Below, piece after piece: positions 16,500-40,849 of a DNA stretch of 64,000 nucleotides. A model generated the notes under the pieces. That model was not told the origin of the DNA. It saw only the letters and a program-made list of their open reading frames with translations, and did no database searches. The translations under genes and the position numbers were made by a program. This DNA comes from Vitis vinifera (lineage: Eukaryota > Streptophyta > Magnoliopsida > Vitales > Vitaceae). Positions within the stretch are counted from its first letter, which is position 1. Each line of letters starts with the position of its first letter. The stretch is taken from positions 3,493,501 to 3,557,500 of the forward strand of contig NC_081812.1 of assembly GCF_030704535.1 (NCBI RefSeq). Reading direction: 5' to 3'.

Positions 16500-17021
16500 A
16501 AAAAATAATTAAAATAACATTTAAAAGAAATAATATAATAGTAAATATTGTCAATATTAGCATTAGAAATCAAGACAGAAAACTCAAACACCCATTTTTT
16601 CGGTTTAAAAATGAATAAAATTGTTAAATTATTGGAAACTCATTGATAATTAAGGTATAATAGAAGATAATGAAGATACTCAAGGCTAACTGGCTAAGGT
16701 GGTGGAAGATAGGTACTACATAAATGTAGATATGTTCCCAGAGAGACTTGGCTTTTGAGTTTGATGTAAAGCGGTGTCTTTGTTGCGTGAGCAGAAAGGC
16801 CTGGCTCTGTAACCAACCCCTGTTTCCTTCCTTTCCTCCCTTTCATCCTTACGATCTCGTTAGATGAAACCAATGCTTTCTGCTATGGAGGATAATCATT
16901 GTTTTATCTCATTATTAGGGTGGGTAAGAGTTTCTTTCATTATATTACTCACTTCGACAGATGTAGACTTTGGTTATCGTTAAAGCTGAATAGGAGGCAT
17001 GACTTCATTTTTCCCTTCTCC

Positions 17022-17029
17022 TATAAATA
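17022..17029 (+). promoter_or_regulatory. TATA box of DUF866-like copy A
   Basis: TATAAATA in the context CTCCTATAAATAGAGATGA lies 70 bp upstream of the ATG at 17,099. The same context is kept in copies E (29,571) and F (31,274), altered to TATATATA in G (32,956) and to ACAAATATA in B and D. Confidence 0.7.
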
Positions 17030-17098
17030 GAGATGAAGAATAGCCTCATTGTGTCAATTCCACTATTATTCACAAAAGGTAAAACAAAGAAAATAAAT

Positions 17099-18068
17099 AT
17101 GACAAAGGTTATGTCTGTTGTATCAGTCGAGATGAGGAATATTGTCTTTCTTCAAACTTGAGCTGGTGGTAATGATATAACCATCAACTACTTCTTCAAG
17201 GTGAAAATTTTGAGTATTGTTTTTATTTAACACTGATGTTGTTTTGTATTTTAACTACTTTTTTGTTACATTGAAAGTGGAGTGTGAATAGTGTGGTTGG
17301 ATTTCCCTGGAGAAAGTTTGCGTTTCTTTGGGACACAAAGAAAAGCCCACTGTAGGGAATAGGAGAATGAATTATAACAATGCATCTCTTAGAGTGGGTT
17401 ATATTACTTAAGTTTCCATTATTTTCTTTGCTATTGCTACTGGTTTTTTTTTTTCTCATTCATTTGCCCATGATTTTTGTTTTTTGTTTTTTTTTCTTTG
17501 TTCTGAAGATGGATATGGCAAACGATGTGTCATCTCTCTGATCCCAGGCCATGGAAATCCACTAAGCGAATATCACTGTAGAGAAATGGGACTAATACTG
17601 GTTAATTGCGAAAGACTTATCCTTTTGACCTATTCGTTCAATGGTGGATGGCTAGCGATGACGGTGTACCATTATCACCATAATTTTATCATTTTTCTTG
17701 TTATTAATTTGAGCTCAAGTCACTAATAGTTTTTCTTTTCTTTTCAGACATCTGGCCAAGAGATCCATGTTCATCTTCTTGGTCGAGAGTACAAGAACGT
17801 GATTGATGGAGATGAGGTCACAATCATGAACCCGGAAGCTCAATTTTTTCCCAAAGGCTCATATTGGTCCTTTTGGATCTATTCTCTATGGTTGTTATTT
17901 GGATTTTCATTTAGACATTTTGGATGCTTGGGATATTTTGGATGTCTTGTTAGGATGTTTATGTGTGGATGTTATTATGGATATTTGGATGTTTATGTGT
18001 GGATGCTATGGATGTTTGGATGTTTATGTGTGGATATTTATGACACTGATAGTGTAAAATATGATTGA
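17099..18068 (+). pseudogene. DUF866/CZIB-like copy A
   Basis: The family (UPF0587, CXXC-motif zinc-binding protein, about 160 residues) is a conserved eukaryotic zinc protein of poorly known function. Exon 1 (17,099-17,200) gives MTKVMSVVSVEMRNIVFLQ, with TGA at codon 21. Exon 2 (about 17,278-17,394) has VECE-stop-CGW, the stop falling inside the first CXXC. Exon 3 (about 17,509-17,663) has lost the second CXXC (EDGYG where other copies read CDGCD) but keeps ISLIPGHGNPLSE and the SFNGGW block. Exon 4 (from 17,748) gives TSGQEIHVHLLGREYKNVIDG; its usual stop is lost, so the frame runs into the downstream minisatellite to 18,068. Not functional. Confidence 0.85.
17930..18045 (+). repeat. TGGATGTTTATG minisatellite after exon 4 of copy A
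   Basis: Irregular repeats of GGATGTTTATGTGTGGATG and GGATATTTTGGATG. The same block follows exon 4 in every array copy, longest in copy G (33,836-33,990). In copies B-E it continues into a TGTGCAAAATGTGCAAA variant. Confidence 0.75.
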
Positions 18069-18679
18069 AAAAAAAAAGTTTGATAACATTTTGCAAATTT
18101 TTTTTATGACACTAATAATGTAATTTTTTTATACCTTTTGCTATTAAATTAATAAAAGGTTGTCATTGCAAAGATATCTATAACCATGTGACCAATATGT
18201 AGATTTTAAAATTTTAATTTATTTATCAATGGCCATTAAAATAACATTTTAAGGAAATAATATAATAGTAAATACTGTCAATATTAGCATTAGAAATCAA
18301 GACAGAAAACTCAAACATCCATTTTTTCGATTTAAAAATGAATAAAATTGTTAAATTATTTGAAGTTCATATATAATTAAGATATAATAGAAAGATAACA
18401 AAGATGCTCAAGGCTAACTAGCTAAGGTGTAGAAGATAGGTTCTGCATACATGTAGATATGTCCTAAATACATGTAGATATGTCCTAAAAGAGATACTGC
18501 TTTTGACTTTAATTGAAATGGGTGTTTTTGTTGCATGAGCAGAAATGTCTGGCTCTACAGCCAACCCCTGTTTCATTTCTTCATTCTCTTTCATCCTTGC
18601 GATCTCGTTGGACAAAACCAATGTTTTTTGGTTATCGTTAAAGCTGATTAGGAGGCATGGATTCATTTTTTTGTTCTCC

Positions 18680-19494
18680 TACAAATATAGATGAGGAATA
18701 GCCTCATAGTAACAATTCCATTGTTATTCATAAAATGTAAAACAAAGAAAATAAATATGCCAAATGTTATATTGGTTGTATCAGCCGAGATGAGGACTAT
18801 TGCCCTTCTTCAACCTCAGGCTAGTAGTGATGATACAACCATCAACTATTTTCTTCTAGGTAAAAATTTTGAGTATTATTTTGATTTAACACTAATGTTG
18901 TTCTGTATTTTAACTATTTGTTTGTTACATTGAAGGTGAAGGTGAAGTGTGAATAGTGTGGTTGGGTTTCCGTGGAGGAAGTTTGTGTTTCTTTGGGAGT
19001 TAAAGAAAACCCACTACAGCAGGATAAGGAATTATAACAATGCATCTCTTAGAGTGGGTTATATTACTTAAGCTTTTGTTGTTTTCTTTGCTACTACCAT
19101 TGTTTTTTTTTTCTCATTCATCTTCCCATGATTTTTTTTTTGTTGCGTTTGATGGATGTGACAGATAAGATGTCATCTCAATGATCCCAGACCATGGAAA
19201 TCTACTGAGCGAGCATCACAGCAGAGGTAATGGATTGATGTTGTTTAATTACAATGAGCTTATCCCGGTGACCTATTCGTTTAATTGTGGATGGCTTGCG
19301 ATGACGGTATACAATTGTCACCATAATTTTATCATTTTTCTTGTTATGAATTTGCGTTCATATCACTAGTGATTTTTTTTTCACACATCTGGCCAAAAGA
19401 TACATGTTGATCTTTTTGGTTGAGAGTACAGGAATGTGATTGATGGAAAATAGGTCAAAATCACGGAGCTCGACGCTAAATTTGTGCCCAGAGG
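18680..19494 (+). pseudogene. DUF866/CZIB-like copy B
   Basis: The ATG at 18,757 opens MPNVILVVSAEMRTIALLQPQ, and exon 1 is free of stops, though one extra T near its donor shifts the frame. Exon 2 (about 18,938-19,050) has the same TAG between the two cysteines of the first CXXC as copy A. Exon 3 begins DGCDR then TAA (about 19,165); the rest, including NPLSEHHSRG, is readable. Exon 4 (from about 19,386) has two stops. The TATA box is degraded. Sharing the exon-2 stop with copy A suggests that the copy duplicated to give A and B was already dead. Confidence 0.85.
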
Positions 19495-19559
19495 CTGAGA
19501 TTGTTTCTTTTGGATCTGTTCTTTATGGTTGTAATTTTTTAGACATTTTGGATGTTTGA

Positions 19560-19800
19560 GATATTTTGGATGTCTTGTTAGGATGTTTATGTGTGGATGT
19601 TATTGTGAATATTTGAATGTTTATATATGCATGTTATGTTTGGATGTGCAAATGTGCAAAATGTGCATAATGTGACTATGTGCAAAACGTGCAAAATATG
19701 AAAAATTACACTCACACTAAAAATTACATTTTTAGTGTCATTATAAAATGTGCAAAATGTTTGGATGTTTGTGTGGGTGTTTTATGACACTAATAGTGCA
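19560..19800 (+). repeat. Downstream minisatellite of copy B with a short palindrome
   Basis: TGGATGTTTATG and GTGCAAAATGTGC repeats. Around 19,715-19,750 the segments ACACTAAAAAT and ATTTTTAGTGT form a short inverted repeat, also present in copies D and E but not in A, F or G. Confidence 0.6.
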
Positions 19801-20257
19801 AGATATGATTGAAAAAAAAAAGTTTGATAACATTTTGCATATTTTCTTATGACACTAACAATGTAATTTTTTTTTATAACTTTTAATATTAAATTAATAA
19901 AAGCTGGTCATACTAAAAGAAAGGCATATCCTTAACATCACATTCAACTTCTATGAAACGACACTGTTTCAAAGCTACAAAACGTTCCACCCAGTTCATA
20001 CTAAAAGATGTTATTTTTCAAACGTCAGTTACCTCCCACACCCAAATTCTCATCCATGGCCTTTCACTTCAAACCCGCCTTATTTCCTAGCTGGTCGGCC
20101 TCAATTCAATTGATTATGCTTGTTTCATCCTTGATCAAACCCTTTCTTCTTGATCAAAGCCTACACCCTCCAAGACTCTCCACAAAATTCCCTATTTCTC
20201 TATCTCTAAATGCTTTAGAACAATGCTAAACCAGGTAATTTCACATATCCATTTGTC

Positions 20258-20446
20258 CTAAAAGCTTGTTCCACCCTTGGTTGGGTGCTTGATGATGAAA
20301 AAATTCATAGTCTCTCCTACCCCTTCTATGGATAACAGTCTCAACTCTATGGGGCTTTGAAACGCCCCTTCAAACCCAAACTTTTCAGCTAAATAAAAGG
20401 GCAAGTGATCAGTGCAAGGAGGAACCAAAAAAGAACAATTTATCAA
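20258..20446 (-). other. Conserved 62-codon ORF, copy 1 of 3 (unrecognised)
   Basis: Encodes a 62-residue sequence containing CTDHLPFYLAEKFGFEGAFQ and ending KHPTKGGTSF. Near-identical ORFs occur at 41,520-41,708 and 43,514-43,702, because all three sit in duplicated DNA downstream of the myosin XI pseudogene. A TTGCAAG-type splice acceptor lies just before the readable part, so it could be an exon of a neighbouring gene carried along by duplication. I do not recognise the protein. Copy 1 differs from the other two by a few residues. Confidence 0.4.
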
Positions 20447-20509
20447 ACCATTAATCCTTGCAATTGAGTTATAAGGAGAATCGGATTAATGGGACATGGC
20501 TCTGAGAGT

Positions 20510-20560
<51 letters not shown>

Positions 20561-21277
20561 GTTTTCAACATAAAGCCGTATTGCAAAAGTTTAAGCAAAA
20601 GCCAATTGTCTTTATAATAACTTGTTGTTTCAAACTATAAAAAAAAAAAGTATAGAAGACTAAGATATCACACAGATTTCATTCAACAGTTTCAGCTCCT
20701 TGCCATGAATTTTAGGTTCCATAGGCTGTTCTACCATTTTTACAACTTTGTATATATCGTCATCGACAGCAGAAAACACTTGTCATGACCCTCTCATTTT
20801 GGAATGAATAATAGAACCTTACATCACTAACACAAAACCGTATTCCATATACAGTAAAAATGGCCAAAAAAATGTGGCTACCATCATAAATTACAGTCTA
20901 AGTACTAAAAAACCGACCCAAAAGAAGAAATACAATACCGAGAAGCCCAACAAACAAATGAAAAAGCCTTTGCTGGAGTAACTTCCTGGACGCCAGGGCA
21001 TGTTTCTATTTGTTGCTCAGTGTTTTGGCACTAGAACTGTAGTTTCTACTAATCAAATACCCCACACTGTAAAGAACAAAATGGCAACAGGAAAGGGGGG
21101 AAAAAGAATCAACCTAGACAGAGAAAGCAAATACTAGCCTGGGAAAATGAAACATATATAAATATGAATCAAGCAGATGGAAAATGAAACGTAGGCACAG
21201 GTTTTGCAGCAGGTAGATCGTGAAGAAGGGCTGTGGGAAGAGAGGAGAATTGGAAGGAAAATACAACCACTGGAAAT

Positions 21278-22962
21278 CATTCAGCCCTTGGTAATAAGAA
21301 TGAGAAGCCTGAGTTTTCACGAATCAGTGGTGGAGGATCAATATCAAAAACTTTTATTTGTTGCATTGTCTTGGAAATATCATCCACAGTGAATGGAATA
21401 CTGCAATAATAAAGAAAAAATACGTGAAAAGTTGGTTTATTGCCGCAGAGCAATGAGATCACGAATGCCGATAAAATCAAGCAGTGGATTGGAAATCATT
21501 ACCTTAAGTCATCATCCAATAAGAACGAATTGCTGACAACATTGTTCGAATCTTCAGTCATCATTACTCTCATGCTTGAAATAACCTGCCATTAGAGAAG
21601 AGGTTTTAGACAAAATTTTGACAAATGGATCTGAAACAACTGGAAATAAATATAACTCCATAAAAGAGGGGGGGGGGGGGGGGGAGGAGTTTGCTTAGCA
21701 TGACGAGGATTAAAAACGGGTAGTTAGGGACTGTTTGAAAACCAAAAAATCAGGTTGGCAGTGTTTAGTTCAGAAGGAACCATTGAGATAGTGTAGGGTA
21801 CGGTAAAGGGCCCAAAACTACTTCATTCAAAAGTTGGCTTTCCCAAAAAAAAAAGAATTGAAAAGAAAATCAGGAGTGTCCACATGAAGTGATGAAACAC
21901 AATGTTGAAATATGGCTTTGAATCATCTTTACAGTTATCAAACACCCTACAAATGGAATGGAAAGAAACAAAGATTTGTGTATGTCGAAACTAATGAAGA
22001 CTTACATCTGATGAGACGCTGTGTACCATATTTGTCATCTCAGTACATGGTACTGATCCTGTATAATTGTTATATGCTAAGTATCTGAAAAACCCAAAAT
22101 TTAACAATTTAGTGAGAGAGAGAGAGGTGTGGTTTTGGGTTGAGAGGAAGAAATTGAAGGGTAAAGTTACTTACCGGGCAAAGATCATTTGTTATTTCTT
22201 TCAAAGTTTTTTTAGGCTTTTGATGTATAACTTGATTCAGCAAAATAGAGAAAAACAGATAGGAGAAGGAAATAGTCAAGCAAGCAAGGAAAATATGTGA
22301 AAACAATGATAGTATTAGGAATGGGGGCCAGATTAATGAGTCAAACCAGGAATCCAACTGCTTGTCTGATATGCCTCAGTTCATCCCAAGCTGAGCCAGC
22401 ATACTGAATATAAGGCAGATATTAGGCCACATTCTAAAGACAACAACGTGTAAAGGTTAAAGAGGAGTAATTAATCTCACCTCTTTGGTTGCTTCATGGC
22501 ACAAATTTTCTAACTCAGCCAATCCTGTCTTAACAAACTCCCCATTGCTGAATGAGCAACATTCACGCCTCAAAAGGAGACTGCAAAAATGAATTTAAAA
22601 ATGCCACTTACACATATTACATAATAAAGGCATTGGGATCATAAGAAAAAAGCCATGTTTGAGTGCACTTACCTGTTGAATAACTGAACATTGATGAATG
22701 AAAATATCTAAGTGAACACCTTGCAGACTAGGAATTGCGGAACTTGTACAGTCACAATATCCAACAAAATGAGGTACTGCTGTAAGAAGAAAAACAATCA
22801 GTTTTTGACATCATATTTCAGACTGTGACACTTACATGGTTTGCTTTCATTATCTTCAAGTAAAAATTCAGGCTTTTCAAAATGCTTTGCCAATGAGCAA
22901 TCAATGCTTGTTGTGCAACAGCATTAGCTTGAGAACGTCCCTTCACGGGATGTTTTAGGTGC
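21278..22962 (-). pseudogene. Myosin XI C-terminal globular tail (DIL domain), copy 1
   Basis: Exons in transcription order: 22,962 to about 22,838 (QANAVAQQALIAHWQSIVK-type segment), about 22,780-22,675 (IFSFINVQLFN), about 22,580-22,480 ([11 protein letters not shown]), about 22,410-22,350 (YAGSAWDELRHIRQAV), about 22,240-22,170 (VIHQKPKKTLKEITNDLCP), about 22,086-22,008, 21,585-21,503 (MTEDSNNVVSNSFLLDDD) and 21,400-21,278 (FTVDDISKTMQQI... ENSGFSFLLPRAE, TGA). This is the cargo-binding end of a plant class XI actin motor. Lesions: a deletion shifts the frame in the first exon listed, and the 22,008-22,086 exon has two stops (TAA and TGA). The motor, IQ and coiled-coil regions are absent. 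Confidence 0.88.
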
Positions 22963-23506
22963 CTGTATAATGAAAAGATACTTGAATAGAGATCAAGAAT
23001 ATATTGGGCAACTTAAAAGTTTCATTGCAAAGGAGAATGAGCTGCCTTACATAGAAATAGTAAATGAGTTACTGAGATGGTGTGTGCCAAGTGGTCAATT
23101 TGCCCAATAGAAACATTCTTTCTAGGTGCAACGGAATTGATTGATCCCTAAATTCTAACAACAGGTACTTATTCAAGGAAGTTTATTTACATGTAAATGA
23201 ATAAATAAATTCAAGGGGAGGCATACTTGGTTTTGGGTGAACAATAGAAAATGTGAATTAATAGGTTGACTTACAAGTTTACAGGCAGCAGCACGATGTA
23301 AAAAATATAGGAAATATTTACTTACCATCTACATGTCTTAACTTAATCTATCATACCTTTCCATTTTCTCCCCTCATAAGTAAAAAATCAAACCGTATTG
23401 TTGAAGAAATGTTTTAGAACAGTGCTAAACCAAGTAATTTAAGATATCCATTTGTCATAAAAGCTTTTTTTTTTCTCATTCGTCTGCCCATGATTTTTTT
23501 TTTTTT

Positions 23507-23872
23507 TTTTTTTTGTGTTGAAGATGGATATGGCAGACGAGGTGTCATCTATCTTATCCCAGGCCATGGAAATCCACTGAGCGAACAACATTGTAAAGAA
23601 GTGGGACTGATACTGGTTAATTGTGAAAAACTTATCATTTTGACCTATTCGTTCAATGGTGAATGGCTAGCGATGATGGTATACCATTGTCACCATAATT
23701 TTATCATTTTTCTTGTTATGAATTTGAGTTCATATCACTAGTGGTTTTTTTTTTCTAGACATCTGGCCAAGAGATACATGTTGATCTTTTTGCTCGAGAG
23801 TACAGGAATATGATTGATGGAAAAGAGGTCAAAATCACGAACCTCGAAGCTAAATTTGTGCCCAGAGGCTAA
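23507..23872 (+). pseudogene. DUF866/CZIB-like copy C (exons 3 and 4 only)
   Basis: Exon 3 (about 23,522-23,670) reads DGYGRRGVIYLIPGHGNPLSE with the second CXXC lost, as in copy A. Exon 4 (23,759-23,872) is open and complete: TSGQEIHVDLFAREYRNMIDG ... AKFVPRG, TAA. Exons 1 and 2 are replaced by the myosin-containing block, whose end lies about 45 bp upstream. Its 3' side is cut by the LTR-like segment near 24,065. Confidence 0.85.
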
Positions 23873-25577
23873 GATTGTTTCTTTTGGATCTGTTCTTTAT
23901 GGTTGTTATCTTTTAAACATTCTGGATGTCTTGTTATGATGTTTATGTGTGGATGTTATTGTGAATATTTGGATGTTTATATATGCATGTTATGTTTGGA
24001 TGTGCAAATGTGCAAATGTGCAAAATGTGACTATGTGCAAAACGTGCAAAATATGAAAACTTACACTTGTGAACTCTATCGAAGAGGGGCATATTTGTAG
24101 ACCCCCATATGGGGCTCGAGTTTTGTCATACCCCAACAATTTTTTCTTACCAGGTGGAGGCCTCTCAATGAGCCACTTGTCAACTCGTGGATGGCTGCTG
24201 GGAATCAGAGTAGTGGATGGGAGATGCAATCAGGGAGCGACACCTGTCAAAGGAATATTCTGAGGAGCGGGTCTGTTATGCAAAGGCTGCAGGCCGTTAG
24301 TGGTGAGGTTGCTTTTTTTTGGACGTGTTAGTAGAGGAGCGTTTCGGTGTCAGAGAAGGAGGTTGCTTTTTGGACGGGCGGCCTGGAGATATTTCGGGGA
24401 GGAGGAAGTAGCAGAGGAAAGGGAGCATGGGAATGAAAAAGAGGGTAGAGTTTAGCTGTGAGAAGAGGAAAAACAGATAGCATGTTTCTGGAGAGGGGGT
24501 GACAACATTGTGGGTAGGAGCAGAGAGCTTTGGGAGAGAGGAGATTCCTTTAGCAGAGGGAAGGGTAACAAGGAAAAAAATGAAATCTGAGAGGGCAGTT
24601 CCAGGTACGTTCAATGTAGTTTTTTTTATCATTTCCCCTCATGACTCTGTTTTCTTTGTCTTCTATTTTCTATGGTTATCTCTGATTTTCTGGGCATTGG
24701 GCGATTGTTCGAGCATGTGATGACTTATTACTTTTCTCTTACATTGTTTATCTGAATATGGCTCATTCCTATGATGGAATTTTGTTGATGCTTTCATCTT
24801 GATATTTGTTATGACCTGTCTTGCTGTACCACTGGTTGGGGAACCCTTGATTTCAACGTAAAATGGGATCCCACTATGGCTCTGCTCACCTTATCTATTG
24901 GGTTTTAAGTAAGTGTTTCTTGTCTTGCTCTCTCACCTTTATTTCCGGTGCCTCAACCCATATCTCTGCTCTCTGGTTCATATTTCTGGAACTGCTCTGG
25001 ATGATCGATTGCCTGTTCTGACCTGTGCTTGAGAATGAGAGGGCTGTGCGTTAGCTTACTACCCCAAATCTGTGACCTTAGTGGACAAGACATATGCATG
25101 GTTTACATTAGCCGCTACTCTAGTTGTTGGGTTTGCCATTGATACAGAAAGCTATATTCTCCTTTGGTGGCAGCAGAGTAAAACGGGGGGTGGAGGTTTA
25201 TCTTGCGCTCAGTGGGGTCCATGTGTTTTGCCGCTTTGACCATTGGAAATGGTAAAATTTCATTAACAGTGAAATAAACGGGTTTGATTTTATAGGCGCA
25301 TGAGGGTTTCTCTCTGTTTTCTCCATGCATTCGGCCATGAACTAGAAGTTTGATTTGAAAGATTTCCTAGTCGCCTCAAGCTTACACAGTTAAGGCTGAG
25401 ATTGGAACTGAAATTTCTGTAAAGAAAGTTAAAGCTGAAGGGAAGAACAGCTACAGCAGCAACAAGGAGCTTCAGGTGCTACATCCTTGCCCACATCACA
25501 AGCAGGCCGAGCTTCACTTTCCATGAATTCACGGGTTCCTACCTTATTCGTTCAGGAACCCAATAATCCATCCCAGG

Positions 25578-25832
25578 TACATAAGCTACGGTGTACTGAG
25601 CAGGAACAGTGTGCCGTGCTCACAGCTGGGCATGTCCTACTACAACGGCAGACCTGGCGCTCAAGCCAACTCCTACACTCGCGGCTGCAGTGCCATTACT
25701 TGCTGCCACCGTGTCACAATTCCGGGTGGTGTTCTCAACCTGAATGCCTCGCGTCTGATCATCAGTGGCATGAAGACGCTACATCCTCATGTATATCAAC
25801 AAAATCCAGCAATTCATCACATGATCCAGTAG
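25578..25832 (+). pseudogene. RALF (rapid alkalinization factor) peptide pseudogene inside the LTR-like segment
   Basis: From 25,578 the frame reads YISYGVLSRNSVPCS, then GMSYYNGRPGAQANSYTRGC and SAITCCHR (to 25,712). This is the mature RALF hormone pattern: YISY receptor-binding motif, SYYN.RPGAQAN.Y.RGCS.IT. RALF peptides are secreted, cysteine-bridged ligands of FERONIA-type kinases. The second of the four conserved cysteines is Gly and the basic residue before the fourth is Cys, so the first disulfide cannot form. I see no signal peptide or dibasic cleavage region upstream, and the frame continues past the normal C-terminus to 25,832. It is a captured or retroposed fragment. Confidence 0.8.
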
Positions 25833-26104
25833 CTGTATTTCATCCATCTTCTTATATCATGGGGCCTCTGCTTTCAAGTCTTGCTTGTGAGCCACATTTA
25901 GCATCATTGATGCAAGAGATTTTTCTTGTTGCACAAACTCTGATGACCATTAACAACAACAATATATAGCTAGGCATGATGATTATTCGTTGAACGAATG
26001 GATCCACATAGATGCATGCAACATCAGAATACGGGAGATGGTTTTCCACCTTGCGGCTCTTCAAGACACGGTGCACCTGGTTGTAGGAAGGACCCCGCCA
26101 ATAA

Positions 26105-26515
26105 ATGGAAAAACGTTCATGTGAGCTGCCTAATAACGGAGAATCAGATAATCATGAAAGTGATTTAGATCAGAAGTGTGCGAGCAAGGATTTAAAAGGG
26201 AGTAAGCTAAAACAGAGGATTATGTTGCATGAAGGGGAACCCCTTACACTGCAGGCACTTCACAAGCTTGTTGCTTTGGTCCATGATTCAGTTAAGGTTG
26301 CTGATCGAACTGAACCAGTGCACTCCACTTCAAGAAATGATTCTGATGTTAAAGTGAAAAGTGAACAAAAGAGAATTGTGGCAAGCAATCTATTTCATTT
26401 AGAAAACGACCCTCTCGTTAAAATTTTGTGGACCTTCGAGCCACTTACACTTCAGAATGTCTTTCCTGCCATGGTGCACAATTTCCCAAGAACAAGAAAG
26501 TGGCTACTGATTTGA
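26105..26515 (+). other. 136-codon ORF of unknown identity inside the LTR-like segment
   Basis: Starts MEKRSCELPNNGESDNHESD and ends near NFPRTRKWLLI. Composition is that of a real hydrophilic protein rather than AT-driven noise, with segments such as LTLQALHKLVALVHDSVK. I do not recognise it. Together with the RALF remnant it suggests that the segment contains host gene pieces; it could equally be part of an element-encoded ORF. Confidence 0.35.
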
Positions 26516-27739
26516 CTAGAGAAAATCTGCAAAAAGGGGTGATTGGAAAGAGCTAGAGTTCAAAGGGTATAATTTCAATGTCAAAGGTTAACTTGCTGAG
26601 GTGGCCATCTTCATCCATTGCTCAGGGTTACAGCATCTTCCTCCAATTGGCTAGCCGGTTCGCTCGATTGAGGGTATTATGCCAACTATGCATGGCCATC
26701 TTTTTAAGCCACGTGTCCTTTTTATTTATTTCTTCATTTTCCATTTTAAGATAATTTCTAGGTTTCCAGTGTTAGGATAATTTCCAATTTCTCCATTTTC
26801 AAATAATTTTAACTTTTCAAATCTTCATCCTTAGTTTTAGTTTTATTAGGCCTCAAAATATCAATTTTAATAAAATTTGCTTCCACTTTCTATTTGGCAA
26901 GCAATTTTCAAATCTTTCATGATCTTTTAAAATGTTTTAAAAATAAGCAAGAATTAATTTCGTAATTCCGAATAATGGAATTTATAGAATTAATTCATGC
27001 AAAAATAAACGGGCTTTGGTGGGGGCCCCACATATGTGATTTTATTATTGATGGATTGATTGGTTGATTCGATGGTCACACATGATTGATTTATTATGCT
27101 CTATGATATGCATGAGATTATTCCTTAATTGTGCACTAACCCCCTCTCTTGATAGCGCATTGATCGTTTGATGCCAAGGTATGCCCCGCTCTCACTACGG
27201 TCATTCTTTATTGAGTGTTTTGATTTTCACGTGTGCATGATCACTCTGAGTATTCATTGATTTATTCATCAATTGCCACGTCAGCTTCATTTTATTAGTA
27301 GAGACCCGATTTTAGGGACTTAGAGGGGTGCTACGGTCTTTACCGTACCTTCCCGATAAGTAACCTAACCCCCGAACCCGATCCGGTTTTTCACAGACCG
27401 CCTTTTCCAAAATAAGGACTCACACTTAGGGTTTTTCTTTCTTATTTTTTTTACCCTTTAAAAATAAAACAAAAATAAGTGGCGACTCCAAGTCATTTTC
27501 AAACAATAAATAAAAATCAATTTTTCGAATTGAAAATCGAGCTTGCCATCAAGAGGGAAACGCATGACCCGAAATGCGGGGTCCACACAATGTTTTCTAC
27601 TATGGCGGATAACCATTTTTTGCTCTCATTATTAGGGTGGGTAAGAGTTCATTTAATTCAGTTACTTACTTCTACAAATGCAATCTCTGGTTATTGTTAA
27701 AGCTGATTGGGAGGCATGGATTCATTTTGTTGTTCTCCT

Positions 27740-28158
27740 ACAAATATAGATGAGGAATAACCTCATAGTATCAATTCCACTATTATTTATAAAAGGTAAA
27801 ACAAAGAAAATAAATATGCCAAATGTTATGTTGGTTGTATCAGCCAAGATGAGGAATATTGCCCTTCTTCAACCTTAGGCTAATAGTGATGATACAACCA
27901 TCAACTATTTCTTCCAGGTAAAAATTTTGAGTATTGTTTTGATTTAACACTGATGTTGTTATGTATTTTAACTATTTGTTTGTTACATTGAAGATGGAAT
28001 GTGAACGATGTGGTTGGGTTTTCGTGGAGGAAGTTTGTGTTTATTTGAGAGTCAAAGAAAAGCCTACTAATGGGAGCAGAAGAAGAAATTATAACAATGC
28101 ATATCTTAGAATAGGTTATATTACTTAAGCTTCTATTGTTTTCTTTGCTATTGCCACT

Positions 28159-28198
<40 letters not shown>

Positions 28199-28564
28199 GT
28201 TTGATGGATGTGACAGATAAGGTGTCATCTCATTGATCCTAGGCCATGGAAATCCACTGAGCAAGTATCACAGTAGAGGTGATGGACTGATGTTTTTTTA
28301 ATTACAATGAGTTTATCCCGGTGACCTATTCGTTCAATTATGGATGGCTTGCGATGACGATATACAATTGTCACCATAATTTTATCATTTTTCTTGTTAT
28401 GAATTTGCGCTCATGTCACTGGTGGTTTTTCTATATTTTTTTTTATAGATATCTGGCCAAGAGATACATGTTGATCTTGTTGGTCGAGAGTACAGGAACG
28501 TGATTGAAGGAGAGGAGGTCACAATCATGAGCCTCGAAGCTAAAATTTGTGCCCAGGGGCTGAG
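27740..28564 (+). pseudogene. DUF866/CZIB-like copy D
   Basis: Exon 1 (ATG about 27,816) reads MPNVMLVVSAKMRNIALLQP, then TAG at codon 21, the same codon that is TGA in copy A. Exon 2 (about 27,992-28,110) is open, with an intact first CXXC (CERC) and EEVCVYLRVKEKPTNG. Exon 3 (about 28,205) has DGCDR then TAA, like copy B, and further stops. Exon 4 (about 28,449-28,564) starts ISGQEIHVDLVGREYRNVIEG but an extra A shifts its end. A 37-base T run (28,160-28,196) has replaced the intron 2/exon 3 border. Confidence 0.85.
28160..28196 (+). repeat. Poly(T) run of 37 bases
   Basis: Expanded from the short pyrimidine tract seen before exon 3 in the other copies; likely slippage. Confidence 0.9.
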
Positions 28565-29570
28565 ATTGTTCCTTTTGAATCTGTCCTTTATGATTGTTAT
28601 CTTTTAGACATTTTGGATGTTTGAGATATTTTGGATGTCTTGTTAAGATGTTTATGTGTGGATGTTATTGGGAATATTTGGATGTTTATATATGGATGCT
28701 ATGTTTGGATGTGCAAAATGTGTAAATGTGCGAAACGTGCAAAATGTGACTATGTGCAAAACGTGCAAAATGTGAAAAATTACACTAACACTAAAAATTA
28801 CATTGTTAGTGTCATTATAAAATGTGCAAAATGTTTGGATGTTTGGGTGGGTGTTTTATGACACTGACAATGTAAGATATGATTGAAAAAAAAAAAGTTT
28901 GATAACATTTTGCATATTTTCTGATGACATTAACAATGTAAATTTTTTTTATAACTTTTACTATTAAATTAATGAAAACTGGCCATTGCAAGCATAAATA
29001 TAACAATGTGACCAACATGTAGATTTTAAATTTTAAATTTATTTTACAATGGCCATTAAAATAATATTATAAGGAAATAATAAAATAGTAAATACCTTCA
29101 ATATGAGCATTAGCAATGAAGATAGAAAACTCAAACACCCATTTTTTCGGTTTAAAAATGAATAAAATTGTTAAATTATTGGAAGCTCAGACATAATTAA
29201 GGAATAATAGAAGATAACAAAGATGCTAAAAGCTAACTGGCTATGGTGTTGGAAAATAGGTACAACATACATGTAGATATGTCCTCGAAAACACCTAACT
29301 TTTGACTTTGATTGAAAATTGTGTCTTTGTTGCGTAAGCGGAGAGGCTTGGCTCTGCCGCCAACCCTTGTTTCATTTCTTCATTCTCTTTCATCCCTGCG
29401 ATCTCATTGGACAAAACCAATGTTTTCTAATATGGCAAATAACCTTTTTTTTTTCTCTCATTATTAGGGTGGTTAAGAGTTCATTCCCTTCCATTACTTA
29501 CTTCTACAAATGCAATCTTTGGTTATCATTAAAGCTGAGTGGGAGACATAGCTTCATTTTGCTATTCTCC

Positions 29571-30293
29571 TATAAATAGAGATGAGGAATAACCTCATTG
29601 TATCAATTCCACTGTTATTCATAAAAGGTAAAACAAAGAAAATAAATATGTCAAAGGTTATGTTGGTTGTATCAACCGAGATGAGGAATATTGCCCTTCT
29701 TCAACCTCAGGTGTTAAAAATTTTGAGTATTGTTTTGATTTAATATTGATGTTGTTATGTGTTTTAACTATTTGTTTTTTACATTGAATGGGGAGTGAGA
29801 ATAGTGTGGTTGGGTTTCCGTGGAGGAAGTTTGTGTTTCTTTGGGAGTCAAAGAAAAGCCTACTTTAGGGAGCAGAAGAAGGAATTATAACAATGCATCT
29901 CTTAGAGTGGGTTATATTACTTAAGCTTTTATTGTTTTCTTTGTTATTGTCACTGTTTTCTTTTTTTTCTCATTCATCTTCCCATGATTTTACTGAGCGA
30001 GCATCACTGTAGAGATAATGGACTGATGTTAAATTGCAATGGGCTTATCCCGGTGACCTATTCGTTCAATGGTGGATGGCTTGCGATAATGATATACAAT
30101 TGTCACCATAATTTTATCATTTTTCTTGTTATGAATTTGAGCTCATGTCACTAGTGGTTTTTTTATTATTTTTTTTCAGACATCTGGCCAAGAGATACAT
30201 GTTGATTTTGTTGGTCGAGAGTACAGGAACGTGATTGATGGGGAGGAAGTCACAATCACGAACTTCGAAGCTAAATTTGTGCTTAGGGGCTGA
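29571..30293 (+). pseudogene. DUF866/CZIB-like copy E
   Basis: An intact TATAAATA lies at 29,571. Exon 1 (ATG about 29,649) reads MSKVMLVVSTEMRNIALLQPQ, but the rest of exon 1 and its donor are deleted. Exon 2 has lost the first cysteine (about 29,789). Exon 3 has lost its start, including the second CXXC, and begins near the LSEHH block (about 29,995). Exon 4 (about 30,180-30,293) is open: TSGQEIHVDFVGREYRNVIDG ... EAKFVLRG, TGA. Confidence 0.85.
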
Positions 30294-31273
30294 GATTGTT
30301 CCTTTTGGATCTATCCTTTATGGTTGTTATTTAGATCTTCTTTTAGACATTTTGGATGTTTTGGATATTTTGGATGTTTTTTTAGGATGTTTATGTGTTG
30401 ATGTTATTATGAATATTTGGATGTTTATATGCGGATGCTATGTTTGGAAGTGCAAAATGTGCAAATGTGCAAAATATGCAAAATTACACTTACACTAAAA
30501 ATTACATTATTAGTGTCATTAGAAAATGTGCAAAATGTTTGGATGTTTATGTGTGGCTGTTTTATGACACTAACAGTGTAAAATATGATTGGAAAAAAAA
30601 AGTTTGATAACATTTTGCATATTTTCTTATGACACTAACAATGTAATTTATTTTTATAACTTTTTACTATTAAATTAATAAAAGTTGGTCATTGCAAACA
30701 TATCTATAACAATGTGACCAACATGTAGATTTTAAAATTTCAATTTATTTTACAATGGCCATTAAAATAACATTTCAAGAAAATAATAAAATAGTAAATA
30801 CCTTCAATATGAGCATTAGCAATCAAGACATAAAACTTAAACACCCATTTTTTCAGTTTAAAAATGAATAAAATTGTTAAATTATTGGAAGCTCAGACAT
30901 AATTAAGGTATAATAGAAGATAACAAAAATGCTAAAGGTTAACTGGCTAAGGTGGTGGAAGATAGGTACTGCATACATGTATATATGTCCTCGGAGAGGC
31001 CTAGCTTTTGACTTTGATTGAAAATGATGTCTTTGTTGCATGAGCAGAGAGGCCTGGATCTACAACGAACCCCTGTTTCCTTGCTTCCTTCCCTTTCATC
31101 CCTACGATGTTGTTGGACGAAACCAATGCTTTTTGCTATGGTGGATAACCATTGTTTTCTCTCAATATTAAGGTGGGTAAGAGTTAATTTCCTTCAATTA
31201 CTTACTTATACAGATATATACTTTGGTTATCGTTCAAGTTGAATGAGAGGCATGGCTTCATTTTGCCCTTCTC

Positions 31274-32106
31274 CTATAAATAGGAATGATGAATAGCCTC
31301 ATTGTATCAATTCCACTATTATTCACAAAAGGTAAAACAAAGAAAAGAAAAATGCCAAATGTTATGTTGGTTGTATCAGTCAAGATGAGGAATATTGCAT
31401 TTCTTCAACCTCGGGCTGGTAGTGATGATACAACTATCAACTACTTCTTCCAAGTAAAACTTTTGAGTATTGTTTTGATTTAACACTAATGTTGTTATGT
31501 ATTTTAACTATTTGTTTGTTACATTGGAAGTGAAGTGTGAGCAGTGTGGTTGAGTGTCCTTGGAGAAAGTTTGTGTTTATTTGGGAGTCAATGAAAAACC
31601 CACTGCATTGAACAAGAGAATGAATTATAACAACGCATATCTTAGAGTGGGTTATATAACTTAAGCTTCTATTGTTTTCTTTGCTATTGCCACTGTTTTT
31701 TTTTTCTCATTCGTTTGCCCATGATTTTTATTATGTTTTTGTCGTGTGATGGATGTAACAGACAAGGTGTCATCTCACTGATACCAGACCATGGAAATCC
31801 ACTAAGCGAGCATCATTGTAGAGAGGTGGGACTGATGTTGTTTAATTGTGATGGACTTATCCCTGTGACCTATTCGTTCAACGGTGGATGGCTAGCGGTG
31901 ATGGTATACCATTGTCACCATAATTTTATCATTTTTCTTGTTATTAATTTGGGTTCAAGTTACTAATGGTTTTTCTATTTTTTTTTTCCAAACATCTAGC
32001 TAAGAGATTCATGTTGATCTTGTTGGTCGAGAGTACAGAAACGTGATTGATGGAGAATAGGTCACAATCACGAACTTGGAATCCAAATTTGTGCCTAGGG
32101 GCTGAG
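31274..32106 (+). pseudogene. DUF866/CZIB-like copy F
   Basis: TATAAATA at 31,274. Exon 1 (ATG about 31,351) is open: MPNVMLVVSVKMRNIAFLQP ... NYFFQ. Exon 2 keeps the first CXXC (CEQC) but the following Trp codon is TGA. Exon 3 (about 31,750-31,900) is intact, with the second CXXC (CDGC), GVISLIPDHGNPLSEHH and SFNGGWLAVM, and a good donor. Exon 4 (about 31,994-32,106) has two stops. With G, this is the copy closest to a complete gene. Confidence 0.88.
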
Positions 32107-32955
32107 ATTGTTCCTCTTAGATCTATCCTTTATGGATGTTATTTGGATTATCTTCTAGACATTTTGGATTCTTGGGATATTTTGGATGTCTTGTTAGGAT
32201 GTTTATGCGTGGATGTTATTATGGATATTTGGATGTTTATGAATGTTTATGACACAGACAGTGGAAATATGATTGGAAAAAAAAGTTTGATAACATTTTG
32301 CAAATTTTTTTATGACACTAATAATGTAATTTTTTTTATACCTTTTGCTATTAAATTAATAAAAGTTGGTCATTGCAAACATATCTATAACCATGTGACC
32401 AACATGTAGATTTTAAAATTTCAATTTATTTTACAATGGACATTAAAATAACATTCTAAGGGAATAATATAATAGTAAATATTGTCAATATTAACATTAG
32501 CAATCAAGATAGAAAACTCAAACACCCATTTTTTTGGTTTAAAAATGAATAAAATTGTTAAATTATTGGAATCTCAGAGATAATTAAGGTATAATAGAAG
32601 ATAACAAAGATGCTCAAGGCTAATTGGCTAAGGTGGTGGAAAATAGGTACTGCATACATGTAGATATGTCCTTAGAGAGGCCTTGTTTTTCACTTTGATT
32701 GAAAATGATGTCTCTGTTGCGTGGGCAAAGAGGCCTGACTTTGTAGCCAACCCCTATTTTCTTCCTTCCATCCCTTTCATCCCTACGATCTCGCTGGACA
32801 AAACTAATGTTTTATGCTATGGTGGATAACCATTGTTTTCTCTCATTATTAGGGTAGGTAAGAGTTTGTTTCCTTCATTTGCTTACTACTATAGATGCAG
32901 ACTCTGATTATCGTTCAAGTTGAATGGGAGGCATGGCTTCATTTTGCCATTCTCC

Positions 32956-33783
32956 TATATATAGAGATGAAGAACAACCTCATTTTATCAATTCCACTAT
33001 TATTCATAAAAGGTAAAACAAAGAAAAAAATATATCAAAGGTTATGTTGGTTGTATCAGCCGAGATGAAGAATATTGTTATTCTTCAACGTCGGACTGCT
33101 AGTGATGATACAACCATCAATTACTTCTTCTAAGTAAAAATTTTGAGTATTGTTTTGAGTTAACACTATGTTGTTCTGTATTTTAACTATTTGTTTATTA
33201 CATTGAAGGTGGAGTGTGAACGGTGTGGTATGGTTTCCCTAAAGAAAGTAGGTGTTTATTTGGGAGTCAAAGAAAAACCCAGTGCAGGGAGCAAGAGAAG
33301 GAATTATAACAATGCATCTCTTAGACTGAGTTGTATTACCTAAGCTTATGTTGTTTCTTTGCTATTGCCACCGTTTTTTTTTCTCATTTGTCTGCCTATG
33401 ATTTATGTTCTTGTTTTTGCAGTGTGATGGATGTGACAAACGAGGTGTCATATCACTGATCCTAGACCATGGAAATCCACCCAGAGAGCATCATTGTAGA
33501 GAGGTGGGACTGATGTTGTTTAATTGCGATGGGCTTATTCCTGTGACCTTTTCATTCAACGGTGGATGGCTAGCGGTGATGGTATACAATTGTCACCATA
33601 ATTTTATCATTTTTTTTGTTATTAATTTGAGCTCAAGTCACTAATGGTTTTTCTTTTTTCTTTTTTTAGACATCTGGCCAAGAGATCCATGTTGATCTTG
33701 TTGGTTGAGAGTACAAGAACATGATTGATGGAGAGGAGGTCACAATCACAAATCTGAAAGCTAAATTTATGCCTAGAGGCTAA
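32956..33783 (+). pseudogene. DUF866/CZIB-like copy G
   Basis: The start codon is ATA where the other copies have ATG (about 33,031); the exon is otherwise readable to NYFF, where a TAA abuts the donor. Exon 2 (about 33,208-33,325) is open, with CERC and VKEKPSAGSKRRNYNNASL. Exon 3 has a clean acceptor (TTTGCAG at about 33,420) and is intact: CDGCDKRGVISLILDHGNP ... SFNGGWLAVM. Exon 4 (about 33,671-33,783) has one stop. The downstream minisatellite is the longest of the array. Confidence 0.88.
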
Positions 33784-33835
33784 GATTGTTCATTTTGAAT
33801 CTGTCCTTTATGGTTGTTATTTGGATCTTCTTTTA

Positions 33836-33990
33836 GACATTTTGGATGCTCGGGATATTTTGGATGTCTTGTTAAGATGTTTATGTGTGGATGTTATTAT
33901 GGATATTTGGATGTTTATGTATGGATGCTATGGATGTTTATGTGTGGATGTTTATGTATGGATGCTATGGATGTTTATGTGTGGATGTTT
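33836..33990 (+). repeat. TGGATGTTTATG minisatellite after copy G
   Basis: At least six imperfect copies of GTTTATGTGTGGATG, including two adjacent GCTATGGATGTTTATG units. Confidence 0.8.
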
Positions 33991-34090
33991 ATGACACTGA
34001 TAGTGTAAAATATGATTGAAAAAAAAAAGTTTGATAACATTTTGCAAATGTTCTGATGACACTAACAATGTAATTTTTTTTATACATTTT

Positions 34091-37000
34091 GTTATTAAAT
34101 TAATAGTCTTAATAAAATAAGATTGAAGTGAGATAAAATTCTGCCAAAATTCATGTAACTTCTTTAACATTTTTAGTTTACAGAAAAAATAGTTATTGAG
34201 GATGATTCAACAAATAACATATTTAAAATCAAACAAATATCTTATAGTACCATAACAAAGGCTGCACAGTGAGTCTCGAAAAGAAAAATCATAAATGTCT
34301 AAAATCAAATTTAAGAAGTTTAGTTTATAGAAAACATGTCCAAAGTAATTAAAGATATTATTTAATAATTCAATTTTATGAACCAAGTCCGAAACAATGT
34401 AAGACCTAAGCATGTTAAAAACATAACTTTTGTTCCTTATTTGAAAAATTATTTATGAATCAAACGAGATCCTACTGACATATTTAAGAAGTTTAGAGCA
34501 ATATCAAAGCATTGGAATGATTTTGGGGAGCTATGAGTGATTGGATTCTAATTTACAAATTCAAAGGTGCAAAGGACATTTAAGAATGTCAATAGAAAAC
34601 TAATTTTGGGAAAAACTTTGTATGTAAGGATTTACTAAATCCCTTTCTAATATCAAATGAATTCATCCATAATTCCTTACCTCAAATGATCATTAGCTCA
34701 CCAAGGCTAAGAGTGATTCCATTAATCGGAGTTATGGAATTAATTTGTGTATATTCAAAATCAAAATTCATTTTAAAAACCTTTTCAAATATGCATACCG
34801 AAAATAATGTAGCCTAACTTGAAAATTAATTTGCATACCTAATGACTTAAGATTAATTTTAAAATAAAGTTAGAAGATTGATTAGACTATGAAAAAGGTT
34901 GAAAACAATTTTTTTAAAAAAAAATCTTAAAATACATAAAATTTCAAACACAAACCATCAAAGAAGAGTATAAGTGTATGTACGTGAATTCTTTAGTGTA
35001 CCAAGATGAAAGTCAAGTGGCCTAAATATGAACATAAGACATAGCTGCATTTAAGACTAACAGTGTCGTGATTTAGGTTTTAAATTATGATACAAAAGTA
35101 TCCCAAGTGTGTGCCTAATCAAACCTAAACATGTGATCATCCATTGTTGTCAAATGTGTGTGAATTGTGATAAGTAAGTCAAAAGCATATATTAACCGAA
35201 AACATAAAATAAAGGAGACATGAATTCAAATTAATATATTCATTTAAAGCCAATTATAATACAATCATCCAATGGCTTATTTAGGTAAAAGAATGTGAAG
35301 AAAAAAATTATCCTAATCACAATCTTAACTCATCAAACAACCAATATTCTATCAAACAATTCCCTGAATGTCAATTCTAACAACACTCGTGTGTGGCACG
35401 GTTCGTCCACGCCCAAACCAGATTCAATATATCAAAATAAATCATGCAATTGAGGAAAAATTAGAAGGAAAGCAAGATAATATAAAAGATAAAAATCAAA
35501 GATAGAAAATTCAATAACTTACCTAAGGATCTTCCAAAATTCGACAATGTGTTGGTGTTCTTTCAAGCCATGTTCAGCTCATCTTCATTAAGCAGCCAAC
35601 TTTATCGCTTTTTCTTCACTGATTTTCAGCTATAAGTTTCCCACATGACCACCGAAATCCACCATTTCTCCATGGGAATTCAGCCATTAAAATTCTATTA
35701 CCCGAACGCCTTTCTCTCACCATAAAATATTCAATCACCAAAGCACTAACTACTCCATTCATGGCCACATAACCAGTCATTCTCTCCTCCACGTTCTCTC
35801 ATCGCCACCCACACCTTCATCGCCGGAGATAGCCCCGCCGTGACCTCCCTTTCCCTCCAGTGCACCTTCACCCATCGCCGCCCTTCCTTTCTCTCATGCC
35901 GACACTGCCACCCTTTCCACCATGCCTACATCGCACCTGTTCCCATGATACTCGGGCGCATTGGGCTCATTCATTATTGATATTGGGCTTCCATTATTTA
36001 TATTTGGGTTTGTTGATATTTGTTTTGGGCCTTTGATTGAAGGTTTGTTTGTGGGTTGCAGCGATTTTATTTTCATTTGGGCCTTATGGCATTGTTATAC
36101 ATGTAAATTCATTATTAACGTGTGGTTTTTGTTTCTATACATTTATTTAATTTGACTAATTATTCTATAAATACATTATTATTATTATTATTATTTTAGG
36201 CTTATTTTATTACTTAATGGAGAATAAGTGTTTTTAAGCAAAATGGTGAAAATTTGTTTTTTAAAATAAGAATCAAATTTGAATATTTAAAAAAAAAAAA
36301 TTATGAAACTCTTTCCTTTTCTAAAAAAAATGAATAAAAGACATTTTGTTACCAAAGTTAATAGAAATTTGGCTCATAGAAATTTGAAAAAATATATATA
36401 AAAGAAAAAAAAAAGGATAAAAACTAAAAAATAATAATTAAAAGGTTTAAATTTAATAAATGATTTGTATTTGTTACTTGAAACTCAATCTTTTATAAAA
36501 AAAAAAAGATTAAATAATTTTAAATTGCTTGAATTTTTAATTAATTTTAATTATATTTGATTTTTTTTTACAATTTTATAATAAAATTAAATAGAAAAAA
36601 ATAGTTTTTAAAATATTTTTCCTTGGTATTTTTCTTAAACAAAACATACTATTAAACATTAAAAAATTGTAAAATTATCGTTTTATATAGATAAATAATT
36701 TTTTATTTTATATAAAATCAAAATTTGTTTGAATGTATTCTAAGTTTTCTAAAAAATAATTTTTAAGAATAAAATTCTATTTAGTAATGAAATATAAAAA
36801 CTACATTCTTGGGGCATACATACCATTTACTACTCAATAAAGTTATTTTAGTAAATTACAAATTTTGATTTGATGTTTTTAAAGAGGAAAGAAAAACCTA
36901 GAATGGAACAAAAATCATTGATTGTGAATGCCCCAAAAAGGAAAGTCTTAAAGCACTTTTGTTAACTTACATTAAAATTATTATTATTATTTAAAAGAAT

Positions 37001-39040: not shown

Positions 39041-39140
39041 ATCAAGCTGCATTGGATTTTTGGCTTTGAACAGCAGAGTTGATGAGGACTTCAAGCTGCA
39101 TGCAGTAGTCAAAATCTCTCATTTTGCCCTCCTTTCCTCC

Positions 39141-39148
39141 TATAAATA
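39141..39148 (+). promoter_or_regulatory. TATA box of DUF866-like copy H
   Basis: TATAAATA in CTCCTATAAATAGAGGAG, the same context as in the array copies. Confidence 0.7.
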
Positions 39149-39189
39149 GAGGAGGGAGAGTGACCTCAATATTCCACCCAACTGCAATT

Positions 39190-39963
39190 CATTTGCATAA
39201 CGTTGGCCTTTTCAAGCCCGAAGGTGGTACCGATGATGAGGAAATGAACTATTTCTGTAAGATAAACATTCAATATTGTTCATCATTTGTTGTTTGATTT
39301 AACATTGATGTTCTTTTGTAGTTTAACATTTTAGTTTCTCTGTGGATGGGTTTCTCAGAAAGAAGTATGTGTTAACATCAGAGTTCAAGAAAAAGCCCCT
39401 GGGAAGTAGGAGAAAGAGTCATGTGAACATATCTCCTACGGTGGATAGTATTAGCTTCATTCTTTATTATTTCTGCTCTTTCTCTCATTGCTTTTGTTAT
39501 TGTTTGTTTCTTGATTTTGCAGTGTGATAGGTGCGAGCAAGGGATTATCTCACTGGTCCCAGACATGGACGCCCACTGAGGGGAGATGATTTTATAGACG
39601 TGCATGGTGTTCGATTGTGATGGAATCCTTCGGTGGACTACTCTTTTAACGGTGGATGGTCCGTCATAATGGTATACATAACATTATGGCAAGAGCATCC
39701 ACCGTTAAAAGAGTAGTCCATCGGGAGGATTCCATTACAATCGAACACCATTAATGGCACGTCTGTAAAATCATCCCCTTAGTGGGCGTCCATGTCCGGG
39801 GCCTAGTGAGATTGTCCCTTGCCACTCGCACCTATCACACTGCAAAACTAAGAAACAAACAATAACAGAAGTAATGTTGTCGTTGATGGGGAGTATATTG
39901 AAATCAACATGCGAGAAGCCAAGTTCGAACCAACAATGGATGACAGAATGCTTGGTTTTTAGT
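39190..39963 (+). pseudogene. DUF866/CZIB-like copy H (divergent) with an inverted exon 3
   Basis: Exon 1 lacks the start but reads NVGLFKPEGGTDDEEMNYFC (about 39,200-39,259). Exon 2 begins CGWVSQKEVCVNIRVQEKAP and meets TAG. Exon 3 (from about 39,525) has a clean acceptor and CDRCEQGIISLVPD, then TGA. Exon 4 (about 39,874-39,963) reads NVVVDGEYIEINMREAKFEP, TMDDRMLGF, stop. It differs from the array copies at many residues, so it split off early. Between exons 3 and 4 lies an inverted second copy of exon 3 with its upstream intron end (39,684-39,866). Confidence 0.85.
39496..39866. repeat. Long inverted repeat (hairpin) made of two opposed exon-3 copies
   Basis: Arm 1 (39,496 to about 39,668) and arm 2 (about 39,684-39,866) are imperfect reverse complements of about 175-183 bases with a spacer of roughly 15-20 bases. 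Both contain the end of intron 2 and exon 3 of the DUF866-like gene. The reverse arm keeps a more family-like GPGHGRPL than the forward arm, so the arms come from two different copies rather than from one copied in place. Confidence 0.88.
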
Positions 39964-40818
39964 TTAGGCAGTTTCTGATTGTTTTCAGTTAACTAGGTCG
40001 TTTATGTTTTTCCTTTCTGTTCCCTCTCTGTTTGTAATCCCTTTTCTTTTATCATTATCAAACGTTTCGTCGTTCCAACCCAATAGAGCCCTAGTGGAGT
40101 GAGCAGTAAAATAAAAACCAAAATGGAAAATTTGTTCCCACTAAAAAAAATATAAATTTAATTTTTAAAAATAAAAATAATGAAAACTAAATATTATATA
40201 AAAAAAATATTCATCATTAATTAATTACTAATATTTTATACTATTTCAATATTCTCGGGCTTGAATTTGTTTGGCCAAAATGGTTGCATGGGCCACCAAT
40301 CACCCGCATCGGAGAAGAAAATACCACTACTATGCTATTTATTTCTTTATGTAAACATTTTCCTGTTAGCTAAAAAAATAGATTCCTCCTAAAATTTTCA
40401 TAATAATAAAAATGAAATTAATTTAAAGTTACATAATATAATTTTTTTTTAAATTTATAAAATAATAAGTTATATAATTTTATATATATATGAATTAAAT
40501 AACTTTCAACAAATAATTTCACATTTAAATATTATATATTTTTTATTTAATAAAATGTTAAAATATTGATGTATCTATATTTTAATATGATAATATTAAA
40601 AATACAAAAAAATAAATATTATTAATTTTTAATTTCTTTACATACTTAAAAAAATTTTTATATATATTTTAAATTGTAATAATATATAAATTATATATTT
40701 ATGACATTATCATTCAACCATGGATCTAACCAATAAACCATAAAATGATAACTTTTCCAGTTCAATGATTAGTCCAATTATAAAAACATTAAAATAATAA
40801 ATCAAATACTATAGTAAA

Positions 40819-40849
<31 letters not shown>

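Follow-up and report, generated by a model that had tools for sequence, protein, structure and literature searches.

Proteins of the DUF866 family (UPF0587, CXXC zinc-binding proteins; C1orf123 in human), also named CZIB, are the closest described relatives of a tandem array of gene remnants in the grapevine genome, located at 16508-34105 of a 64,000-nucleotide stretch of contig C8 (C8:3493501-3557500), here called the window. The array resembles the family in its domain, in the order of its sequence blocks and in the two CXXC motifs of its intact relatives, and its exon layout is that of the canonical DUF866 gene on contig C4, but the grapevine subfamily scores lower on the PF05907 profile and is multi-copy, and its array copies are broken. 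PMC6166629 gives 861 sequences in 735 eukaryotes and two CXXC motifs in ~90% of PF05907 members. An earlier note on this DNA had called the family normally low-copy, which stands for the family at large but fails in this genome.

In its evolution the array is a case of the birth-and-death process, known in kind from tandem gene families that contain clusters of pseudogenes. The likeness lies in the head-to-tail duplicates, the many dead copies, the few intact members elsewhere and the segmental spread, while the difference is that none of the 23 aligned copies of three arrays is intact and that the block seemingly spread after some of its copies had died. A literature search at the level of titles and abstract openings found no DUF866 arrays in plants. 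A further described system, relevant to a foldback at 39.5 kb of the window, is that of inverted-duplication small-RNA loci (PMC3237417); pseudogene-derived small interfering RNAs are reported in rice (PMC2708354).

The region is very probably what remains of a tandem array of a divergent DUF866 paralog, all copies of which are dead here and decayed in a nearly neutral manner. A working four-exon paralog would have been tandemly duplicated once, creating a ~1.7-kb unit with a single junction, and this unit would have multiplied through unequal exchange. Segmental duplication would then have carried blocks of the array, with some flanking sequence, between C8, C9:14.14 Mb and C15. Selection on the copies would have ceased about when the array formed, followed by nearly neutral decay in which C-to-T change was most frequent at CG and CHG sites, in what would have been methylated, silent chromatin. 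Intact relatives survive on C9.

Structure of the C8 array

The window contains seven DUF866-derived units, arranged head to tail on the plus strand and ~1.7 kb each. Unit 1 (16508-18154), the 5' part of which is truncated, contains a gene remnant at ~17099-17856 (PF05907 E=2.8e-12) and is followed by unit 2 (18155-19911; remnant ~18757-19497; E=6.2e-18). Unit 3 (23465-24062) is truncated to exons 3-4 and gives E=2.4e-5, with 24.7 bits vs a cut-off of 22.9. The last four units are contiguous: unit 4 (27588-28973; remnant ~27816-28563; E=1.5e-16), unit 5 (28974-30678; ~29648-30294; E=5.3e-7), unit 6 (30679-32361; 31352-32105; E=1.8e-22) and unit 7 (32362-34105; ~33032-33783; E=1.1e-21). The start-to-start spacing of the six copies with exon 1 is 1658, 9059 (a value that spans interruptions), 1832, 1704 and 1681 bases. 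Pieces of the other units, 0.36-1.75 kb long, are 79-88% identical to unit 6 at the DNA level, far above chance. The earlier note, which had reported at least seven head-to-tail copies, was therefore right on this count, and all of the motif blocks that it quoted were found in the window copies in the correct order.

Its assignment to DUF866 was also correct. When the exons of each copy are joined, with an X put at each stop, 7/7 copies exceed the gathering score of 22.9 of PF05907 (CXXC_Zn-b_euk), with 24.7 to 80.4 bits and E-values of 2.4e-5 to 1.8e-22. The introns are retained at the positions of the canonical gene on C4, which has four phase-0 exons, encodes 166 residues and scores 180.3 bits on the same profile. 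The earlier description of each copy as having four exons and its own promoter applies to a part of the array. Four exons are present in five copies; deletions affect exons 1 and 3 of copy 5, and only exons 3-4 are left of copy 3. In 4/6 copies with exon 1 the start codon is preceded, at a distance of ~76-79 bases, by a TATA box (TATAAAT or TATATAT), the other two, copies 2 and 4, having other sequence at this position and copy 4 a TATAAAA at -28.

Three intact four-exon frames with GT-AG introns, all on C9, represent a divergent DUF866 subfamily. Those at C9:1823 kb and C9:1865 kb have 163 residues each, and the third, of 164 residues, is the final copy of a tandem array at C9:1.774-1.788 Mb. 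The three score 111.9, 108.4 and 91.1 bits on PF05907 vs 180.3 for the C4 gene. Both CXXC motifs are present in the intact single genes, and the intact relatives are presumably functional. Relatives of known structure found by sequence are 5zlq and 5zrt, two entries of human C1orf123.

Inactivation of the array copies

Every copy in the window (7/7) is broken by a lesion or a truncation, as the earlier note had claimed. Premature stops are present in 6/7, the seventh being copy 3, which is without exons 1-2, and at least one splice dinucleotide has been lost in all six copies that have these exons. Unit 1 contains stops in exons 1 and 2, its acceptors 2 and 3 are not AG where expected and its terminal stop is gone. 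Unit 2 is the remnant with stops in all four exons, together with length changes in exons 1 and 2 and loss of acceptors 3 and 4. In unit 4, exons 1 and 3 contain stops, exons 3 and 4 have one-base insertions, and donors 2 and 3 and acceptor 3 are gone; in unit 5, exons 1 and 3 have deletions, exon 2 contains two stops, and donors 1 and 3 and acceptor 2 are gone. Unit 6 has stops in exons 2 and 4 and has lost all three acceptors, while unit 7 has lost its start codon and donor 2 and has stops in exons 1 and 4; these two units retain both CXXC motifs. In the other five of the seven copies (copies 1-5), one or both of the motifs are lost or interrupted. Several copies, including 1 and 3, have the exon-3 acceptor out of register, which makes the exact lesion there uncertain.

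The same applies to the sister arrays on C9 and C15, as 23/23 aligned copies of the three arrays carry a lesion or truncation. The mildest damage is found in copy C15_10, which has all splice sites but lacks one zinc-site cysteine and has a single stop close to the C terminus. Read by majority, the 23 aligned copies give a sequence without a premature stop, so the founder of the array was most likely intact. Retained introns, lesions in every copy and near-neutral divergence place the array among duplicated (unprocessed) pseudogenes.

Related arrays on other contigs

The genome searched comprises 495.6 Mb in 21 contigs, and both the DNA and the protein searches across it score only the best candidates, to which the counts given here refer. 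A DNA search with unit 6 yielded 36 matching pieces, clustered in the window, at C9:14.136-14.145 Mb and at C15:16.630-16.652 Mb, with weaker matches at C9:1.82-1.87 Mb, C9:16.52 Mb and C15:16.66 Mb. When one intact relative was used as a protein query, 96 exon matches were obtained, adding the array at C9:1.774-1.788 Mb, which belongs to a second subfamily. The DUF866 family thus occupies at least five loci besides the canonical gene, and DNA, protein and local comparisons pooled together give a tally of ~40 DUF866-derived copies, many of them partial. The C15 copy number is a lower bound, with 16635541-16638457 and 16645995-16648568 lying outside the count, and the gene alignment is without the copies at C15:16.66 Mb.

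The junction between tandem units, at ~32361 in the window, occurs four times in the window (query included), five times at C9:14.14 Mb and twice on C15, where one of the two matches is partial and begins at query base 23. The arrays on C8 and at C9:14.14 Mb terminate at the same position of the unit, and the following 1.6 kb, at 34106-35707 in the window, is 93% identical between them. The flanks of the C15 array match the window at 50.1-51.0 kb (91%) and 38.1-38.5 kb (83%). The expansion was accordingly not the local burst that the earlier note had described, as the same unit and junction recur in arrays on C9 and C15. That note had also given, as one outcome that would speak against its reading, a known repeat family dispersed through the genome and unconnected with the gene; among the best candidates the matches lie at few loci and gene structure is kept.

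Some further observations concern the flanks. Window positions 50127-51008 match the sequence upstream of the C15 array at 91% identity, and because of this match the segmental duplication may extend over more of the window. Part of the flank at 34106-36100 is also 94% identical to C9:1806352-1807374, which has the second-subfamily array on one side and the intact gene at 1823 kb on the other, a region that may be the home locus. Weaker matches of the flank (~66-84%, the longer ones mostly 78-80%) are spread over many contigs, and part of the flank is therefore itself repetitive.

A unit with identical ends at three places could also be expected of a mobile element that had picked up a DUF866 gene and made tandem insertions, and short sequences near the 3' end of the unit do recur beside other family members. 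However, among the best candidates the matches to the unit are clustered at a few family loci and not scattered singly, its common ends are the tandem junction, the sequence downstream of the last unit resembling that beside single family members, and the C8 and C9 arrays have a common flank outside the unit. An ungapped repeat scan of 14000-46000 found no inverted repeat of at least 150 nt, which is weak evidence on this point. Scattered single insertions with ends of their own were not seen, target-site duplications being inspected by eye only. The mobile-element origin, which is very unlikely, was rejected on the identity of the unit ends with the tandem junction and on the outside flank common to the arrays.

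The relationships between the arrays were analyzed in a tree of 20 array copies and three single genes, which leaves aside the truncated copies C8_3t, C9a_1t and C15_8t. Copy C8_1 pairs with C15_9 (support 100/100), and C8_2, C8_4 and C8_5 group with C15_7 (support 100/97). An exon-2 stop is common to C8_1 and C15_9 and is present in three other copies too, and an exon-3 stop is common to C8_2, C8_4 and C15_7. Since sister copies on different chromosomes have common stops, the death of some copies probably predates the spread of the block, and the array had probably diversified and partly died by the time it was copied between chromosomes. Silencing in every copy after a burst, the simple order proposed in the earlier note, does not fit these common stops, for which gene conversion is the alternative.

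Mode of decay

Divergence among the array copies is nearly equal at the three codon positions (0.181/0.159/0.183), while between the array copies and two intact single genes it is 0.31/0.234/0.446, highest at the third position. The ratio of nonsynonymous to synonymous change (dN/dS) is 0.64 (0.47-0.80) within the arrays and 0.33 (0.23-0.52) between the arrays and the intact genes; the intervals were obtained by codon resampling, with the 253-pair set treated as 60 rounds of 40 sampled pairs and seven codons excluded. This ratio is misleading on its own, and it was judged against a neutral simulation that used intron mutation rates (150 rounds of eight copies, star-like) and gave 0.73 (0.59-0.94). 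As the three codon positions diverge almost equally among the array copies and their dN/dS is near that of the neutral simulation, constraint appears to have been lost about when the array formed, with near-neutral decay since.

The dN/dS of 0.64 would also be in line with some units still working, be it by way of truncated proteins, alternative splicing or weak constraint, as would the TATA box retained in 4/6 window copies with exon 1 and the survival in C15_10 of all splice sites with its single stop near the C terminus. Against this, the 6/6 window copies with exons 1-2 combine splice-site loss with premature stops and copy 3 is without these exons, the array dN/dS overlaps the neutral simulation and CXXC motifs are lost or interrupted in 5/7 window copies, so that continued function of the units is unlikely.

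In the mutation spectrum of the 23 array copies, CHH cytosines undergo transitions 4.5 times as often as A/T sites, and relative to CHH the C-to-T rate is increased 2.07-fold (1.66-2.55) at CHG and 1.94-fold (1.43-2.55) at CG. Methylated cytosine in plant CG and CHG contexts is expected to give an excess of C-to-T change, and this concentration of C-to-T change suggests a methylated, silent chromatin state for the arrays in the past.

Several results weigh against the reading of the region as a dead, nearly neutrally decayed array. A genome-wide single-exon scan with PF05907 at E 0.001 gave 11 matches, none of them in the window. Half of the inner branches of the tree (10/20) are weak, and the stops common to copies on different chromosomes could instead reflect gene conversion or recurrent mutation of one site. 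The array dN/dS is a little under the simulated neutral median, which does not exclude weak residual constraint in some copies. The number of stops per long copy, 2.56 in 16 copies, is above the simulated 1.94, and the introns seem less diverged than the exons (0.128 vs ~0.17), perhaps owing to alignment and to low C+G. In a control of eight copies of the C9:1.77 Mb array, the CHG/CHH ratio is 1.59 (0.87-2.85) and the CG/CHH ratio 1.33 (0.51-2.75), which is the same direction with intervals that include 1, so that the CG and CHG excess is established only in the 23 array copies.

The copies at 39-43 kb and the foldback

The earlier note listed further copies at 39.2 and 41.9 kb, and both are DUF866-derived, although neither is another unit of the array. 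The 39.2-kb copy (39085-40040, plus strand) is a rearranged member of the second subfamily, of the type of the C9:1.774-1.788 Mb array; its start codon is deleted and a TATA box is retained at ~39141. The element at 41904-41991 (plus strand) is only an exon-4 tail, the second copy within a 2-kb tandem duplication (39896-41211 and 41904-43222; four blocks 95-98% alike) that carries the exon-4 tail of the 39.2-kb copy.

Intron 2 and exon 3 of the 39.2-kb copy, together with an adjoining inverted duplicate, form a foldback at 39486-39876 (plus strand; identified by RNA folding), downstream of the retained TATA box. Over 400 nt its minimum free energy as RNA is -306.3 kcal/mol (z -37.5), and its arms are 85% identical with gaps, a gapped structure that the ungapped repeat scan missed. 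A paralogous foldback at C9:14.1695-14.1699 Mb (z -21.7) lies in a stretch that follows the order of the window, with gaps and insertions.

These properties resemble those of inverted-duplication small-RNA loci in that a gene fragment pairs with its inverted copy in a long foldback behind a retained TATA box. The locus could in principle act through RNA, with the foldback or antisense transcripts of the array giving rise to small RNAs that silence the intact DUF866 paralogs, for which the small RNAs reported from rice pseudogenes provide a precedent (PMC2708354) and the apparently methylation-driven decay of the array a further hint. With matches in which one base exceeds 70% excluded and 15 gene regions compared, however, the longest exact match of the foldback is 18 nt to second-type genes and 13 nt to first-type genes, and that of the array region to first-type genes is 19 nt in sense and 13 nt in antisense. 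The C4 gene region has one antisense match of 32 nt, which consists of only four kinds of dinucleotide and lies outside the units, within which the maximum is 13 nt. Selected pairing would predict that the arms are more alike within a locus than expected; of 121 shared columns, two sites group by locus and three by arm, giving no sign of such selection, with little power. An Rfam scan of 16000-46000 gave no match. The foldback differs from the described loci in having neither a long exact match to a living relative nor a sign of pairing selection. Silencing in trans by the array or the foldback has little support from the lengths of exact matches and from arm co-evolution, and its probability is very low.

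The preferred reading of the foldback is an old palindromic duplication, and the chance that it has a small-RNA role is low. A more specific proposal is that the foldback, present behind a TATA box on two chromosomes, acted in the past or still acts as a self-silencing locus, the small RNAs of which drove methylation and the loss of one branch of the family. The prospect of this being correct is very slim indeed, and if it were true, an accidental inverted duplicate would have turned a gene expansion into a graveyard.

Other features of the window

The array is interrupted twice. The first interruption (19912-23464, minus strand) is a DIL-domain (myosin-like) gene fragment, presumably from a class XI myosin gene, which includes repeat families D10, D12, D13 and D18-D20. 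Its pieces, joined by hand, give E=4.3e-5 and 24 bits on the DIL profile, which is exactly the cut-off. A second copy of this fragment is found on the minus strand at ~41.2-45.8 kb, with five repeat blocks 91-97% alike and one 75% in ungapped comparison. The second interruption is a 3.5-kb insertion of unassigned type (24063-27587, ends placed by eye), the two open frames of which gave no Pfam match.

Outside the array, a retroelement at 3563-7348 shows an RVT_2 reverse transcriptase domain (E=5.4e-83) over overlapping frames, and an AT-rich tandem repeat of period 31 and ~10 copies occupies 54155-54458. An exon with an Exostosin GT47 domain (62767-63399, E=4.9e-30) probably belongs to an ordinary host gene.

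Significance

DUF866 is a little-understood and usually low-copy family, and ~40 mostly broken or partial relatives in one genome are unusual. The grapevine loci include intact DUF866 copies, copies that died recently and copies long dead, and so form a natural series. The presence of the block at three places makes it usable for ordering segmental duplication relative to pseudogene decay and for measuring methylation-linked mutation. Of all these loci, it is the intact divergent paralogs on C9 whose biology may be worth testing.

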